A stretch of DNA of 64,000 nucleotides. It comes from Paramagnetospirillum magnetotacticum MS-1 (lineage in GTDB: Bacteria > Pseudomonadota > Alphaproteobacteria > Rhodospirillales > Magnetospirillaceae). A program made the position numbers and the translations under genes. Location of the stretch: NCBI RefSeq assembly GCF_000829825.1, contig NZ_JXSL01000027.1, forward strand, positions 1-64,000, in the 5' to 3' direction. Every line of letters begins with the position of its first letter. The first letter of the stretch is position 1. This document shows positions 7,724 to 11,609 of this stretch, one piece after another. Below the pieces are notes generated by a model that ran no database searches, was not told where the DNA came from, and saw only the letters and a program-made list of their open reading frames with translations.

Positions 7724-8013
7724 TCCTCTGGGAAAGGAGAGGAGCGGGAAGGACGATGCTACCAGAGTACGAAGATGACAGCACGGACGCGGAGTGTACG
7801 GGATTGGCCGACCTAAAAGAAGTAAGTAGTGTCACTGTATGGCAATGTACGTATATTCTTAAGTGTATTCAAAAATTCATCATATCATGCAAAACGAGCA
7901 TGCCTTATTGGATCTAACAAAGGTTGTGCCTGAGTGGTTTTGGTCGTCATGCTGCGTTCCTAGTTGGGGTGAACAACAGTTTGTTGTCTCAAATAGAACC
8001 GCAGGAGGACGCC
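7724..8013. other. Divergent intergenic region, kinase / chemoreceptor
   Basis: 290 bp between two divergent genes, unusually AT-rich around 7820-7920. It must hold both promoters. A short inverted repeat (CATGC at 7886-7890, GCATG at 7898-7902) is visible; I cannot assign clear -35/-10 boxes and see no open frame likely to be a gene. Confidence 0.4.
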
Positions 8014-9720
8014 GTGAGGCTCGCCAATATTGGGGTAACGTACAAAATCATGGTTCTGGTTGCCGTCATGGCGCTGATGACTGGGGTCGTCGGCTCTATC
8101 GGCTACAGCAATGTCGGCAAGCTCGGGGCGCTGACAAAGGATGTGGATATGCTGGGTGACCTTGCCCTCAAGGCGTCTCGGGTCAATCAGCTGGTTCTAA
8201 CCCTCAATCGTGCTGAATACCGATTGGGGATGGATCCCTCCGTTGAAACCATGAAAATCGTTCAAGATGCATCCGCCGGGTACAAGGCTCAGTTCGAAGC
8301 AGGTATTGCCGAATTGAAGGCCGATGCCTCCGATCAGGAAAAGGAACTGCTGCGCAAGGCCGAGGAGGATTACAAGGCTTATCTCGCCGAGTTGGAGGAC
8401 ACTTTTGCCAAGGTCCGCCAGCACGGCCGCGACGTTGATTCAAACGAGGCGCGCAGCGTCATCATCAGTTCCGTGACGTCGAGCCGGCCGGTTGCCGACC
8501 GGCTTCAAGCTTCCATGAGAGCCATAGGCGACCATTTCGACGCTAGGTCAACGGAGGGGGTGGCTAACGCCAACAAGGTCGCGGATTTCGCAAGAACCAT
8601 GACATTGCTGGTGGCGCTGATCGGCATCTCGCTTGGTGCGCTTTTCGGCTTTTTGATCGGGAATTTCGGCGTCAGCGCTCCTATCGGAAAAGGGGTCGAT
8701 TGCTTGCGTCAACTGGCCGAAGGAAATCTGGATATCACCATCTTTGGCGTTGGCCGCAAGGATGAGATCGGTGACATGGCCAATGCCGCCCAGGTGTTCA
8801 AGGATAACGCCATCCGCGTTGCCGCCTTGCGCAAGGAGCAAGAAGACGCCAAGGCGCGGGCCGAAAACGAGCGCCGGAGAGGCATGCTGGAAATGGCCGA
8901 TCAATTCGAGAATGCCGTGATGGGGCTCGTCAAAGGCGTTTCGGCCCAGGCGAGCCAGATGCAGGGAGCATCGCAGGGCTTGTCGTCCTCGGCGCAGCAG
9001 AGTCAGGCTCAGGCCACGACGGTTGCCGCCGCCGCCGAACAGGCTACCGCCAATGTCCAGACCGTGGCCAGTGCGGCCGAGGAATTGTCTTCCTCCATCA
9101 GCGAGATCAGCCGTCAGGTCGCCGAGGCGGCCAGGATTTCGCAAATGGCCTCAGAAGAGACCGACCGAACCAACCAAATGGTCCGGGGATTGGCCGAGGC
9201 CGCGGATAGGATCGGTCAGGTGGTCAGTCTGATCACCGATATCGCTTCCCAGACCAATCTTTTGGCATTGAACGCCACCATCGAGGCCGCGCGGGCGGGC
9301 GAGGCAGGAAAAGGCTTCGCCGTGGTCGCCAATGAGGTGAAGCACCTGGCTACGCAGACGGCACGGGCCACCGAGGAAATCAGCGCTCAGATCGGAACGG
9401 TGCAGGAGGAGACGCGCCGCGCCGTCGAGGCTATCCGCAGCATCGGTTCCGTGATCGAGCAGGTTCGTCAGATTTCTTCCGGCATTGCCTCGGCTGTCGA
9501 GGAGCAAGGCGCCGCCACCCAGGAAATTGCCCGCAATGTTCAGCAGGCAGCCCAGGGAACACAGGAGGTGTCCTCAAACATTATCGGCATCACCGAGGCC
9601 GCCAATGCCACAGGCGCGGCGTCACAACAGGTTCTGGCTGGAGCCGGAGAACTGGCTCGGAATTCCGAACATCTGCGCAGCGAGGTCGGCCGTTTCCTCG
9701 ACGGCGTCCGAGCCGCTTGA
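8014..9720 (+). CDS. Methyl-accepting chemotaxis protein
   Basis: 568 residues from a GTG start chosen because AGGAGGA (8003-8009) precedes it and the product then begins with a normal short N-terminus before the first membrane helix (about 11-28). An upstream ATG at 7924 is in frame but lacks such support. A periplasmic four-helix-type sensor region (about 30-190), second membrane helix (about 193-218), HAMP (about 219-275) and a full signalling domain follow, with the conserved hairpin tip (ASQTNLLALNATIEAARAGE) about 409-430. The C-terminus lacks a CheR-binding pentapeptide. Known role: relays ligand binding to CheA/CheW. The ligand is unknown. Confidence 0.93.
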   Translation: MRLANIGVTYKIMVLVAVMALMTGVVGSIGYSNVGKLGALTKDVDMLGDLALKASRVNQLVLTLNRAEYRLGMDPSVETMKIVQDASAGYKAQFEAGIAELKADASDQEKELLRKAEEDYKAYLAELEDTFAKVRQHGRDVDSNEARSVIISSVTSSRPVADRLQASMRAIGDHFDARSTEGVANANKVADFARTMTLLVALIGISLGALFGFLIGNFGVSAPIGKGVDCLRQLAEGNLDITIFGVGRKDEIGDMANAAQVFKDNAIRVAALRKEQEDAKARAENERRRGMLEMADQFENAVMGLVKGVSAQASQMQGASQGLSSSAQQSQAQATTVAAAAEQATANVQTVASAAEELSSSISEISRQVAEAARISQMASEETDRTNQMVRGLAEAADRIGQVVSLITDIASQTNLLALNATIEAARAGEAGKGFAVVANEVKHLATQTARATEEISAQIGTVQEETRRAVEAIRSIGSVIEQVRQISSGIASAVEEQGAATQEIARNVQQAAQGTQEVSSNIIGITEAANATGAASQQVLAGAGELARNSEHLRSEVGRFLDGVRAA

Positions 9721-9788: not shown

Positions 9789-9945
9789 AGTCCTGTGGGC
9801 GAGCGGCCGATCCCGTCGATATAAAACATGATGATCCAGATCACGCACCGCATCCAAATCGACGAGAAGGAAATCGAGGAGAGTTTCGTCCTCTCCTCGG
9901 GGCCGGGCGGGCAGAACGTCAATACGTTCAGGGGCTCATAGCTAG
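9789..9945 (+). pseudogene. Truncated 5' copy of arfB (copy 1)
   Basis: ATG at 9831 begins a 36-codon frame ending TAG at 9939-9941. Its first 31 codons match the intact arfB at 11190 (13 differences in 93 bases, mostly silent; codons 9 and 21 change residue) through the catalytic GGQ motif and stop matching just after GGQNVN. About 40 bp upstream also resemble the leader of the intact gene, including CCGTCGATATAAA at identical distance from the ATG. The break is followed by TCATAGCTAG (9936-9945). Lacking most of the domain and the basic tail it cannot act as ArfB. Confidence 0.85.
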
Positions 9946-9984
9946 GCCAAGGAGAAATCGCAAAAATATCTATTGAGAGGTGCA

Positions 9985-10008
9985 AACACATGGTATTCAC
10001 CGTGTGTT
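9985..10008. promoter_or_regulatory. Imperfect inverted repeat before the lipoprotein genes
   Basis: AACACA (9985-9990) and TGTGTT (10003-10008) bracket GGT/ACC-like inner bases, forming an imperfect 24-bp palindrome about 30 bp before the first lipoprotein start. Possible operator or short hairpin; no regulator is adjacent. Confidence 0.3.
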
Positions 10009-10039
10009 AGCTGCGGATACTGACACGAGGAAATATGTG

Positions 10040-10486
10040 ATGCGGCGCGTCACCTTAATGGTATTGGCAATGCTGTCGCTAACGGCATGCGATCCTGCCG
10101 TCAATCCGGTTATGGCGTTGGGTCAGAATGTCAATAGCGGCACCGTTCCGCTCCAAGAATATAAAGTATATTTCAAGGAGCCTGTGTCTGAAGTTTATAA
10201 GGCAACATTAGTTGCTGGAAATAGAAATGAGTTAAATGTTATTGATGATGGTGGCGGCAATTTTGTTGTCATTGTGCACTATGATTTCAGTATGGTGAAG
10301 AATGTTTGGGGAGGTCAATTCAGAGTTGGGCTTGATAGCATTGGTGGAAAAACAAGGCTAACGGCAAGCTTCTATGAGAAGAGTAAATATGTAACAAATT
10401 CCGTGTTAAATCCATTTGTTGAAGATATTAACTTCATTCTCTCATCTTCAGGTGTGGTGGGTGATCGAAAGTCGGGGGCGCGTTGA
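10040..10486 (+). CDS. Small predicted lipoprotein (unknown family)
   Basis: 148 residues from the ATG at 10040, which has GAGGA eight bases upstream. The N-terminus MRRVTLMVLAMLSLTAC is a lipoprotein signal with lipobox LTAC, so the mature protein starts at the Cys and is probably anchored in a membrane facing the periplasm. The rest is a beta-rich sequence of about 130 residues that I do not recognise. The gene is clearly more AT-rich than its surroundings (for example 10200-10260), with ATA, AAT and TTA codons rare elsewhere in the window, a sign of transfer. The next gene starts one base after its stop. It lies between two truncated arfB copies. Confidence 0.7.
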   Translation: MRRVTLMVLAMLSLTACDPAVNPVMALGQNVNSGTVPLQEYKVYFKEPVSEVYKATLVAGNRNELNVIDDGGGNFVVIVHYDFSMVKNVWGGQFRVGLDSIGGKTRLTASFYEKSKYVTNSVLNPFVEDINFILSSSGVVGDRKSGAR

Positions 10487-10487
10487 T

Positions 10488-10994
10488 ATGCTGCGGGCAG
10501 GCGCGCGGTGGGGGGCTGCCGTAGGAGTGATTGCGCTGTTTCTGGCGGGGTGCGTTGCGCCTGTGGCCAGGGGGAGTGCCGATGCGCCGCAGGCTATTGT
10601 GGTCGTGGCGCCGATCAAATCCAGTGATGGGGCTTATGTTTCCCCGATCAAGGCTGACGGTACTTTGGCGCAGTGGGTTGCCGAGGGTATAGGGCGTGTG
10701 GGCGAGTTCAAGCAATACGAGGACGGAAAGCGCGTCAGAGATTTCTTGATGCCGTCTGGCCCGAGTATAATCATCGGTGGTTACGCTGACAAGCGGGCGC
10801 AGGAACGAGTGGTGGAATCGTTTGGTGGTTGGGACTATATCAGGAAAACTTCTGATATATCTTTTAATACATTAGATGATCTTCGTGAATTTATTTCTTC
10901 ATTTAAAGAGCGCGGCGTATATCAATCCGCGCGGGTGGCTGCCTCGTGGCTTTATCCCGAATTTTCAGCCTGCGGTCGAAAAACGTCTTGCTGA
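10488..10994 (+). CDS. Second predicted lipoprotein (unknown family)
   Basis: 168 residues. The signal peptide ends LFLAGC, giving a lipobox LAGC. The mature part begins with a Val-rich strand and contains GWDYIRKTSDISFNTLDDLREFISSF; I do not recognise a family. The first two thirds have normal GC, the last third (about 10840-10925) is AT-rich. It starts one base after the stop of the preceding lipoprotein gene, so both are probably made from one transcript. An ATG upstream in frame (10416) would lie within the previous gene and would put the signal peptide internally, so 10488 was chosen. Confidence 0.68.
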   Translation: MLRAGARWGAAVGVIALFLAGCVAPVARGSADAPQAIVVVAPIKSSDGAYVSPIKADGTLAQWVAEGIGRVGEFKQYEDGKRVRDFLMPSGPSIIIGGYADKRAQERVVESFGGWDYIRKTSDISFNTLDDLREFISSFKERGVYQSARVAASWLYPEFSACGRKTSC

Positions 10995-11023
10995 AGTAGA
11001 TTCGTGTGTTTGATGCTGATCCC

Positions 11024-11138
11024 ATGATCCAGATCACGCACCGCATCAGCATCGACGAGAAGGAAATCGAGGAGAGCTTCGTCCGCTCCTCGGGGCCAGG
11101 CGGGCAGAACGTCAACACGCTTGCTACGTCATAGCTAG
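11024..11138 (+). pseudogene. Truncated 5' copy of arfB (copy 2)
   Basis: ATG at 11024 begins a 36-codon frame ending TAG at 11132-11134, the same length as copy 1. Over the first 31 codons it differs from the intact gene at 10 of 93 bases, and only codon 9 (Ser for Ala) changes the residue. After GGQNVN the match ends, and TCATAGCTAG follows at 11129-11138, exactly where copy 1 has it (105 bases after the ATG). The upstream leader shared by copy 1 and the intact gene is missing here. Not a working gene. Confidence 0.85.
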
Positions 11139-11189
11139 ACACATCACCAGCCAGTGGACGAACTCCCTGCGCCGTCGATATAAAGCCGG

Positions 11190-11609
11190 ATGATCCAGAT
11201 CACGCACCGCATCGCCATCGACGAGAAGGAAATCGAGGAGAGCTTCGTCCGTTCGTCCGGTCCAGGCGGCCAGAATGTAAATAAAGTCGAGACTGCGGTT
11301 CAGCTACGCTTCGACGCCCGCCGGTCACCGTCGCTGCCTGATGATGTGAGCGTGCGGCTTCAGAAGCTGGCGGGAAGCCGTCTGACCTTGGATGGCGTGA
11401 TCATCATCATCGCCCAGACCCACCGCAGCCAGGAGCGCAACCGGGCCGAGGCGCTGGAGCGGCTGGTGGAGATGATCCGCGAGGCCGCCAAGCCTCCACC
11501 GCCCAAGCGCCGCCCCACCAAGCCCACCAAGGGGTCGCAGGAACGTCGGCTGGAAAGCAAGGGGAAGCGCGCTGTCACCAAGCGGCTGCGCTCGGAACGG
11601 CCGGAATAG
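11190..11609 (+). CDS. arfB: Alternative ribosome-rescue factor / peptidyl-tRNA hydrolase ArfB
   Basis: 139 residues, the usual length of ArfB (YaeJ, ICT1-like). The catalytic GPGGQNVNK motif with GGQ at 26-28 hydrolyses peptidyl-tRNA on stalled ribosomes. The C-terminal third is a Lys/Arg-rich tail (after about residue 105), which in the family enters the empty mRNA channel. The leader carries CCGTCGATATAAA (11172-11184), shared with copy 1. Two truncated copies of its 5' end lie upstream at 9831 and 11024. The DUF1476-like gene follows after 11 bp, suggesting co-transcription. Confidence 0.92.
   Translation: MIQITHRIAIDEKEIEESFVRSSGPGGQNVNKVETAVQLRFDARRSPSLPDDVSVRLQKLAGSRLTLDGVIIIIAQTHRSQERNRAEALERLVEMIREAAKPPPPKRRPTKPTKGSQERRLESKGKRAVTKRLRSERPE

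Follow-up and report, generated by a model that had tools for sequence, protein, structure and literature searches.

arfB as a putative site-specific integration hotspot: signs of successive insertions in Paramagnetospirillum magnetotacticum MS-1 and related genomes

Two arfB 5' fragments precede an intact arfB gene

We analyzed a stretch of 64,000 nt from Paramagnetospirillum magnetotacticum MS-1 (NZ_JXSL01000027.1, positions 1-64,000, forward strand), which is referred to throughout as the window; its genome is G000 among the numbered genomes compared below. The window contains an intact arfB gene with an ATPase-inhibitor zeta gene on its 3' side, and two successive 5' fragments of arfB upstream. 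The features of this locus are as follows:

9831..9941, + strand: arfB 5' fragment 1 (arfB codons 1-31 plus 5 foreign codons, closed by a TAG in frame)
9901..9950, + strand: attL-like junction 1 (arfB side to GTCAA, then element side TACGTTCAGGGGCTCATAGCTAG)
10040..10486, + strand: cargo ORF A, 148 aa, GC 0.43, lipoprotein-like by its N-terminus
10488..10994, + strand: cargo ORF B, 168 aa, GC 0.55, lipoprotein-like by its N-terminus
11024..11134, + strand: arfB 5' fragment 2 (codons 1-31 plus 5 foreign codons, closed by a TAG in frame)
11094..11143, + strand: attL-like junction 2 (arfB side to GTCAA, then CACGCTTGCTACGTCATAGCTAGA)
11139..11189, + strand: element left-end block and promoter region (CCAGTGGACG...GTCGATATAAAGCCGG), immediately 5' of the intact arfB
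11190..11609, + strand: intact arfB of the element type, 139 aa (Pfam RF-1, E 6.7e-25)
11274..11285, + strand: recoded integration-site core AATGTAAATAAA (N V N K), for which the commonest reading elsewhere is AACGTCAACAAG

Each fragment has 36 codons. Both follow arfB to GTCAA (codons 30-31), continue with 13 foreign bases and then carry TCATAGCTAG, which starts 105 bases past the ATG (9936-9945 and 11129-11138) and whose TAG forms a stop codon in frame within the foreign part. Relative to the intact gene, fragment 1 shows 13 differences in 93 bases (two residue changes; 10 of the 13 at third positions) and fragment 2 shows 10 in 93 (one residue change; 8 of the 10 at third positions); the two fragments differ from each other at 7/93. 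Every coordinate, length, motif offset and difference count that an initial annotation had given for the fragments was reproduced on the window's own bases.

The register of junction 1 is identical to that of 7 other attL sites. Junction 2 leads into the left-end block, which is present at the equivalent position after attL in both G042 and G028; the promoter part of this block was also found in G020 and G003, where no attL was seen. Fragment 1 is probably the old 5' end of the resident arfB. Among 38 upstream regions compared, its own (-50 to -1) was most similar to the one before the uninterrupted G044 arfB (70%), and none of the compared arfB promoters matched the 50 bases upstream of fragment 2 by more than 44%.

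The initial annotation described the DNA between the fragments as a foreign lipoprotein cassette. The GC contents of the two ORFs are low (0.43 and 0.55, versus 0.64 for the window). Their description as lipoproteins is a reading of the N-termini to which family searches add no name, as neither ORF had a Pfam match over the cut-off or a PHROG match at 0.01. ORF A also had no homologue at E 0.001 among the 54 other family genomes.

Downstream, and over part of the upstream side, the locus is syntenic with those of G034 and G039, as determined with markers after leaving out matches that covered less than 30% of the marker. The window has an MCP gene at 7924-9720, where G034 and G039 have a histidine kinase gene and approximately 1.3-1.5 kb before arfB. 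An even earlier insertion may have delivered this MCP gene as cargo; no older arfB piece was detected on its upstream side.

Fragments with a common breakpoint occur in seven family genomes

A search for ArfB gave a match in 50 of the 55 family genomes. Eight arfB 5' fragments were found upstream of an intact arfB in seven of the 55, two of them in G000. Those of G042, G046, G048, G028 and G029 end at residue 33-36, upstream of the intact gene, and a degenerate ArfB match in G026 was a further 5' fragment. All eight are cut at one spot, GGQNV/N. When aligned from the ATG, they read as arfB to GTCA(A/C), with a fixed 14-base spacer to CATAGC(T/G)AG. Searching 317 genomes of the order for the pattern GTCAA-N14-CATAGCTAG yielded seven perfect matches. 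Each of them lies at an arfB 5' fragment, and the junction pattern is thus not due to chance; the one-mismatch matches listed were no commoner than those of a reversed control pattern. The junction of G029 deviates from the pattern at two bases, so the motif expected at each break was present exactly at seven and with this deviation at the eighth.

A scan of 84,980 species returned three loci, which were those of G046, G026 and G028. Three of the seven fragment-bearing genomes correspond to MAG records, and misassembly at single sites among the seven is possible. Viral contigs contained three matches to the attL pattern, none with arfB and all judged to be due to chance, and a search of them with the attP pattern gave nothing useful. 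Searches for arfB found short or distant relatives in viral contigs and phages, and 66 records, the best at 63%, in plasmids.

These comparisons indicate that the arfB locus is a site-specific integration hotspot, and the breakpoint and foreign motif shared by seven genomes support the proposal, made in the initial annotation, of serial site-specific insertion at the GGQ-coding segment. Several same-orientation copies of one gene in a row could also be produced if arfB had been duplicated in tandem long ago and its upstream copies had since decayed, with insertions arising by chance. We regard this origin as extremely improbable, because it does not account for an identical breakpoint and foreign motif in seven genomes of two genera, nor for the different cargo, the empty sites in relatives and the copies of different ancestry at one locus that are described below. 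The foreign junctions and the mixed ancestry of the copies uphold the earlier view that the fragments did not arise by in-place decay of a duplication.

Relatives provide empty sites and different cargo

We compared the flanks of interrupted and uninterrupted arfB genes after leaving out same-genome matches and, in one comparison (G027/G026 and G034/G046), other-strand matches. G027 represents the empty site for G026: 2.9 kb of upstream sequence aligned at 87% to the last base before the ATG, and 0.5 kb downstream aligned at 88% from the stop codon. For G046, the empty site is that of G034, where the alignment extended to within 87 bases upstream. G023 serves as the empty site for G028. The left flank, at 88%, ends 86 bases before arfB and is followed in G028 by approximately 500 unmatched bases before the fragment; the right flank, at 86%, begins directly after arfB.

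The cargo varies by site. G000 has two lipoprotein-like ORFs, G048 another lipoprotein-like ORF, G029 a calcineurin-like phosphoesterase and G043 a nucleotidyltransferase gene. Thus, relatives with an uninterrupted arfB (G027, G034 and G023) and relatives with other cargo at arfB (e.g. G048, G029 and G043), both of which the initial annotation had proposed to look for, exist. The 3.3 kb that follow the complete arfB of G028 match none of the fetched arfB loci, and the cargo of G028 (L069:6738-10000) includes a superinfection-immunity-like protein (Imm_superinfect 2e-15).

G042 has, in addition to its 5' fragment, an older and decayed arfB 5' piece at approximately L060:6386-6441, near the expected start of G043's own arfB. 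Seven probes gave local scores of 40-78 for this piece versus 23-35 for shuffles, and a chemoreceptor gene (an MCP different from that of the window) separates it from the next fragment. Serial insertion is therefore not unique to the window.

Complete foreign arfB genes accompany the native pieces in G042 and G028

The order of features in G042 is native 5' arfB, attL, complete foreign arfB (L060:9609-10028), other genes, the C-terminal part of a large serine recombinase, attR and native 3' arfB. On the 3' side of the complete arfB are a truncated Mrr/ResIII-type gene, an ORF for an HTH-like protein and the recombinase remnant, which covers 255 C-terminal residues, and the inverted motif is followed directly by the 3' arfB piece (codons 29-139). 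The 5' piece was nearest to G043 (89%), and the 3' piece grouped with G043 (100/100) in a tree of 3' parts from which G004, G010, G011 and G018 were excluded. The complete copy is 96% identical to the window's arfB in codons 1-31 and 90% in codons 36-105, and it joined G000 (90/72) inside a 13-member clade (98/96) that does not include G043. Because the flanking pieces resemble G043 and the complete copy resembles the window's gene, we conclude that the resident arfB of G042 was split and a whole foreign gene gained.

The same set of sequences, two native pieces plus a full foreign arfB, is found in G028, where a contig gap intervenes. Its 5' piece was nearest to G023 (88%), its 3' piece (201 bases, at the start of another contig) grouped with G023/G024 (100/99), and its complete arfB grouped with G020 (100/100). 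In G043, an attR with one mismatch and a 3' piece follow the intact arfB and the nucleotidyltransferase gene.

At least in G042 and G028, the element carries a whole arfB and not the 5' end alone. The initial annotation had proposed that each element brings its own 5' end and leaves the old one behind; the old 5' end is indeed left behind, but in these two genomes the gain was a complete foreign gene. Its suggestion that the fragments derive from alleles of different lineages is borne out by copies of different ancestry at one locus.

Attachment sites and a serine recombinase remnant

In G042, attL and attR each consist of one attB half and one attP half; in the window, attL alone was seen. 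We saw attR in two genomes, G042, where the inverted motif precedes the 3' arfB piece, and G043. The attP arms of G042 match as inverted repeats at 21 of 27 positions, as did 0 of 20,000 single-base shuffles in a test run after the symmetry had been seen. The attP sites of serine integrases are approximately 50 bp long with imperfect inverted repeats, and a long, symmetric attP suits this class of enzyme.

The search for a recombinase that the initial annotation had recommended led to the remnant beside one attachment site of G042 (Zn_ribbon_recom 5e-11; PHROG integrase 2.5e-17). The remnant comprises the zinc-ribbon and C-terminal part, the N-terminal half being missing, and is the sole such recombinase seen at arfB. 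Its stop codon falls inside the attR arm. The element of G028 holds a different recombinase-domain stretch at the contig end (Pfam Recombinase 8.9e-6).

The nearest kin of the G042 recombinase are in G034 and G039 (47-48%), and that of G034 has all three serine-recombinase domains. These genes (L087:8749-10497 in G034 and L086:9236-10870 in G039) end near the junction with an interrupted gene, which we take to be comM-like; no second comM-like copy was noticed within 19 kb around each locus. One recombinase family is thus found at two different conserved targets, arfB and the comM-like gene. Among 317 genomes of the order, kin of the recombinase were present in G034, G039 and G042 only, and no closer relative was found in 385 genomes of the class (a set without a positive control) or in 50,697 phage records or viral contigs. 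The window's genome has other serine recombinases and no kin of the G042 enzyme at E 0.001.

A tyrosine-recombinase or transposase reading of the inverted ends was tried and rejected: on visual inspection, the sequence did not agree with flush ends and a target duplication, and the remnant of a serine recombinase at attR offered a better fit. More generally, a recombinase of another class might have made the same insertions, with the G042 remnant being cargo. The known remnant is single and incomplete and G028 has its different recombinase-domain stretch, as this reading would allow; nevertheless, we consider it highly unlikely, because the attR arm contains the stop codon of the remnant, the kin in G034 and G039 also end near a gene junction, and the long, symmetric attP is of the kind that suits serine integrases. 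A large serine recombinase would most likely have moved the element.

The integration-site core is recoded in one group of arfB genes

We compared 37 intact arfB genes, i.e., those of the fetched loci with an intact gene, from the 50 family genomes with a match. Codons 29-31 read AACGTCAAC in 24, AACGTCAAT in 6, AATGTAAAT in 4 (G000, G042, G020 and G003), and AATGTGAAT (G028), AATGTGAAC (G022) and CATGTCAAC (G043) in 1 each. In G043, which also has an attR and a 3' piece, the intact arfB (L061:9901-10317, minus strand) encodes GGQHVN where GGQNVN is usual, so that the integration core differs by one residue. Changes at both asparagine codons occur in five of the 37 genes. Exactly these five, from three genera, have a TATAAAG[CT]CGG promoter; this overlap (hypergeometric 2e-6, uncorrected for shared descent) looks like one element lineage. 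G020 (L032) and G003 (L043) have the element-type promoter and the recoded arfB; their fetched upstream sequence showed neither attL nor a 5' fragment. The promoter box CGATATAA was rejected as an element marker, as it also occurs at the fragment-less arfB genes of G034, G039 and G044; the TATAAAG[CT]CGG form alone accompanies element-type arfB. The case for recoding is built on the comparison of homologues, because codon rarity proved a weak test inside the window, where by this measure 931 of 15605 four-codon stretches were equally rare.

The synonymously recoded core of the carried arfB perhaps protects it from re-insertion in one element lineage. None of the eight arfB genes that were hit (0/8) had the GTA core, which is consistent with protection but does not prove it. 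However, the intact copies in G046, G048, G029 and G026 have the ordinary core, so protection would not be general or would have disappeared when native sequence was exchanged in. The same pattern could also arise by drift within a single lineage. We therefore propose only tentatively, and with more doubt than confidence, that this is a natural bacterial "disrupt and rescue" element. Its recombinase would break a conserved gene at codons whose protein reading hardly varies, and its complete arfB would be silently recoded against a second hit, such that insertion would be harmless to the host and later elements would be excluded until the target was restored by recombination with native sequence.

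A model for the formation of the locus

We consider it probable that a site-specific mobile element, carrying an arfB gene and moved by a large serine recombinase, inserted at least twice in succession at the arfB codons for GGQNVN, and that the window holds the resulting scar. The circular form of this element would contain an attP of approximately 54 bp with two near-inverted arms, the recombinase gene ending inside one arm. On the other side of attP would be a promoter and a complete arfB, preceded by the cargo in some elements. Recombination between attP and the GTC-AA codons of arfB would split the resident gene, placing its 5' piece at attL and its 3' piece after attR; the element would supply an in-frame stop at attL, and the carried arfB would take over. 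Homologous recombination between the 3' ends of the carried and resident genes would subsequently delete the recombinase gene and attR, leaving the form seen in the window: 5' fragment, attL, cargo and intact arfB. A surviving arfB with an ordinary core could be hit again, which would generate serial fragments. As attR was present in two genomes only, we infer the 3' deletion step for G000, G046, G048, G029 and G026.

Mosaic arfB genes fit this deletion step. The arfB genes of G000 and G020 are 89.2% identical in codons 1-31 and 70.5% in codons 36-105, whereas 11 other genomes of G020's genus gave means of 72.8% and 73.8%, respectively. The same shape would also fit a replacement of the 5' end, in which the element brings only a promoter and a 5' end that is fused in frame to the resident 3' end. 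Such a replacement would explain why G000 and G020 share 5' modules and not 3' parts, with the switch near the core, and why no 3' piece is found downstream in G000, G046, G048, G029 and G026. Nevertheless, we judge it to be unlikely as the general explanation: in G042 and G043, attR adjoins a 3' piece that lacks a 5' module to its left, G042 and G028 hold an entire foreign arfB in addition to the two native pieces, and recoded bases occur on both sides of the crossover, so that the shared 5' module extends past it. It may have operated at the sites without attR.

Several observations do not sit easily with insertion of an arfB-carrying element. No intact element was found at arfB in the genomes searched, the 3' piece of G028 is on a separate contig, G043 has attR and no attL within one mismatch, and the nearest kin of the recombinase are in a comM-like gene rather than arfB. 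In G048, the 13 bases that precede CCATAGCTAG on the element side of attL (L066:9462-9489) read as arfB. The model in its simple form does not predict these bases, which look as though native sequence had entered the arm by gene conversion or through a different attP.

Implications and relationship to known systems

In the literature covered, from which subscription journals were mostly absent, we found no report of arfB as an integration site. A paper with both arfB and integration terms names, in the part of its text covered, ssrA and tRNA genes as integration sites and not arfB (PMC4131195), and the covered portion of a survey of large serine recombinases names no arfB target, "release factor" occurring 0 times in its main text (PMC10083194).

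A tmRNA match was obtained in 8 of 9 genomes tested, including that of the window, with a miss in G027 and a partial match in G026; ArfB is therefore probably a backup rescue factor here. An element of the proposed kind would allow alleles of a translation-rescue gene to be replaced, so that a conserved gene could be exchanged between species together with cargo. It would account for arrays of gene fragments that might otherwise pass as decayed duplications, and would provide a natural test of whether silent recoding confers immunity to a site-specific recombinase.

SXT supplies a new 5' end of prfC, such that attR fuses the 5' end from the element to the resident 3' end of the gene. Integration of SXT at the prfC 5' end is described, in the section consulted, as mediated by a tyrosine recombinase (PMC2791158). 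As far as the consulted sections go, ICEs of the SXT/R391 family resemble the arfB element in that they integrate site-specifically, near the 5' end of a conserved translation-termination gene (PMC2791158, PMC3715440). In contrast to SXT, the enzyme of the arfB element is likely a serine recombinase, the site is internal (codon 31), and a complete gene copy is carried.

IMEs that integrate in tRNA genes or gene ends are described, in the excerpt at hand, as keeping their target whole because the flanking repeat includes one end, while site-specific IMEs with serine recombinases disrupt genes that are dispensable for the host (PMC5704250). Within the scope of the same excerpt and of the survey cited above, the latter share with the arfB element a fixed intragenic site and, probably, a large serine recombinase (PMC5704250, PMC10083194). 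The arfB element differs from them in breaking a highly conserved internal site and bringing a full replacement for the gene.

Mobile ORFs of fungal mitochondria carry, according to the portion of the source consulted, a foreign C-terminal part of atp6, atp9, cox2 or nad3 (PMC3630166). Judged by that portion, they are like the arfB element in that a conserved gene is broken, a replacement of foreign ancestry is provided and the native end is left as a fragment. They are mitochondrial, encode a homing endonuclease and carry only a C-terminal part, whereas the arfB element is bacterial and carries a whole gene.

Cleave-and-Rescue (ClvR) elements, which are engineered, nuclease-based and used in animals, break a target gene and supply a copy recoded against targeting. 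In the complete copy of the target gene that is carried in G042 and G028, the arfB element resembles ClvR elements (for which see PMC7951863).
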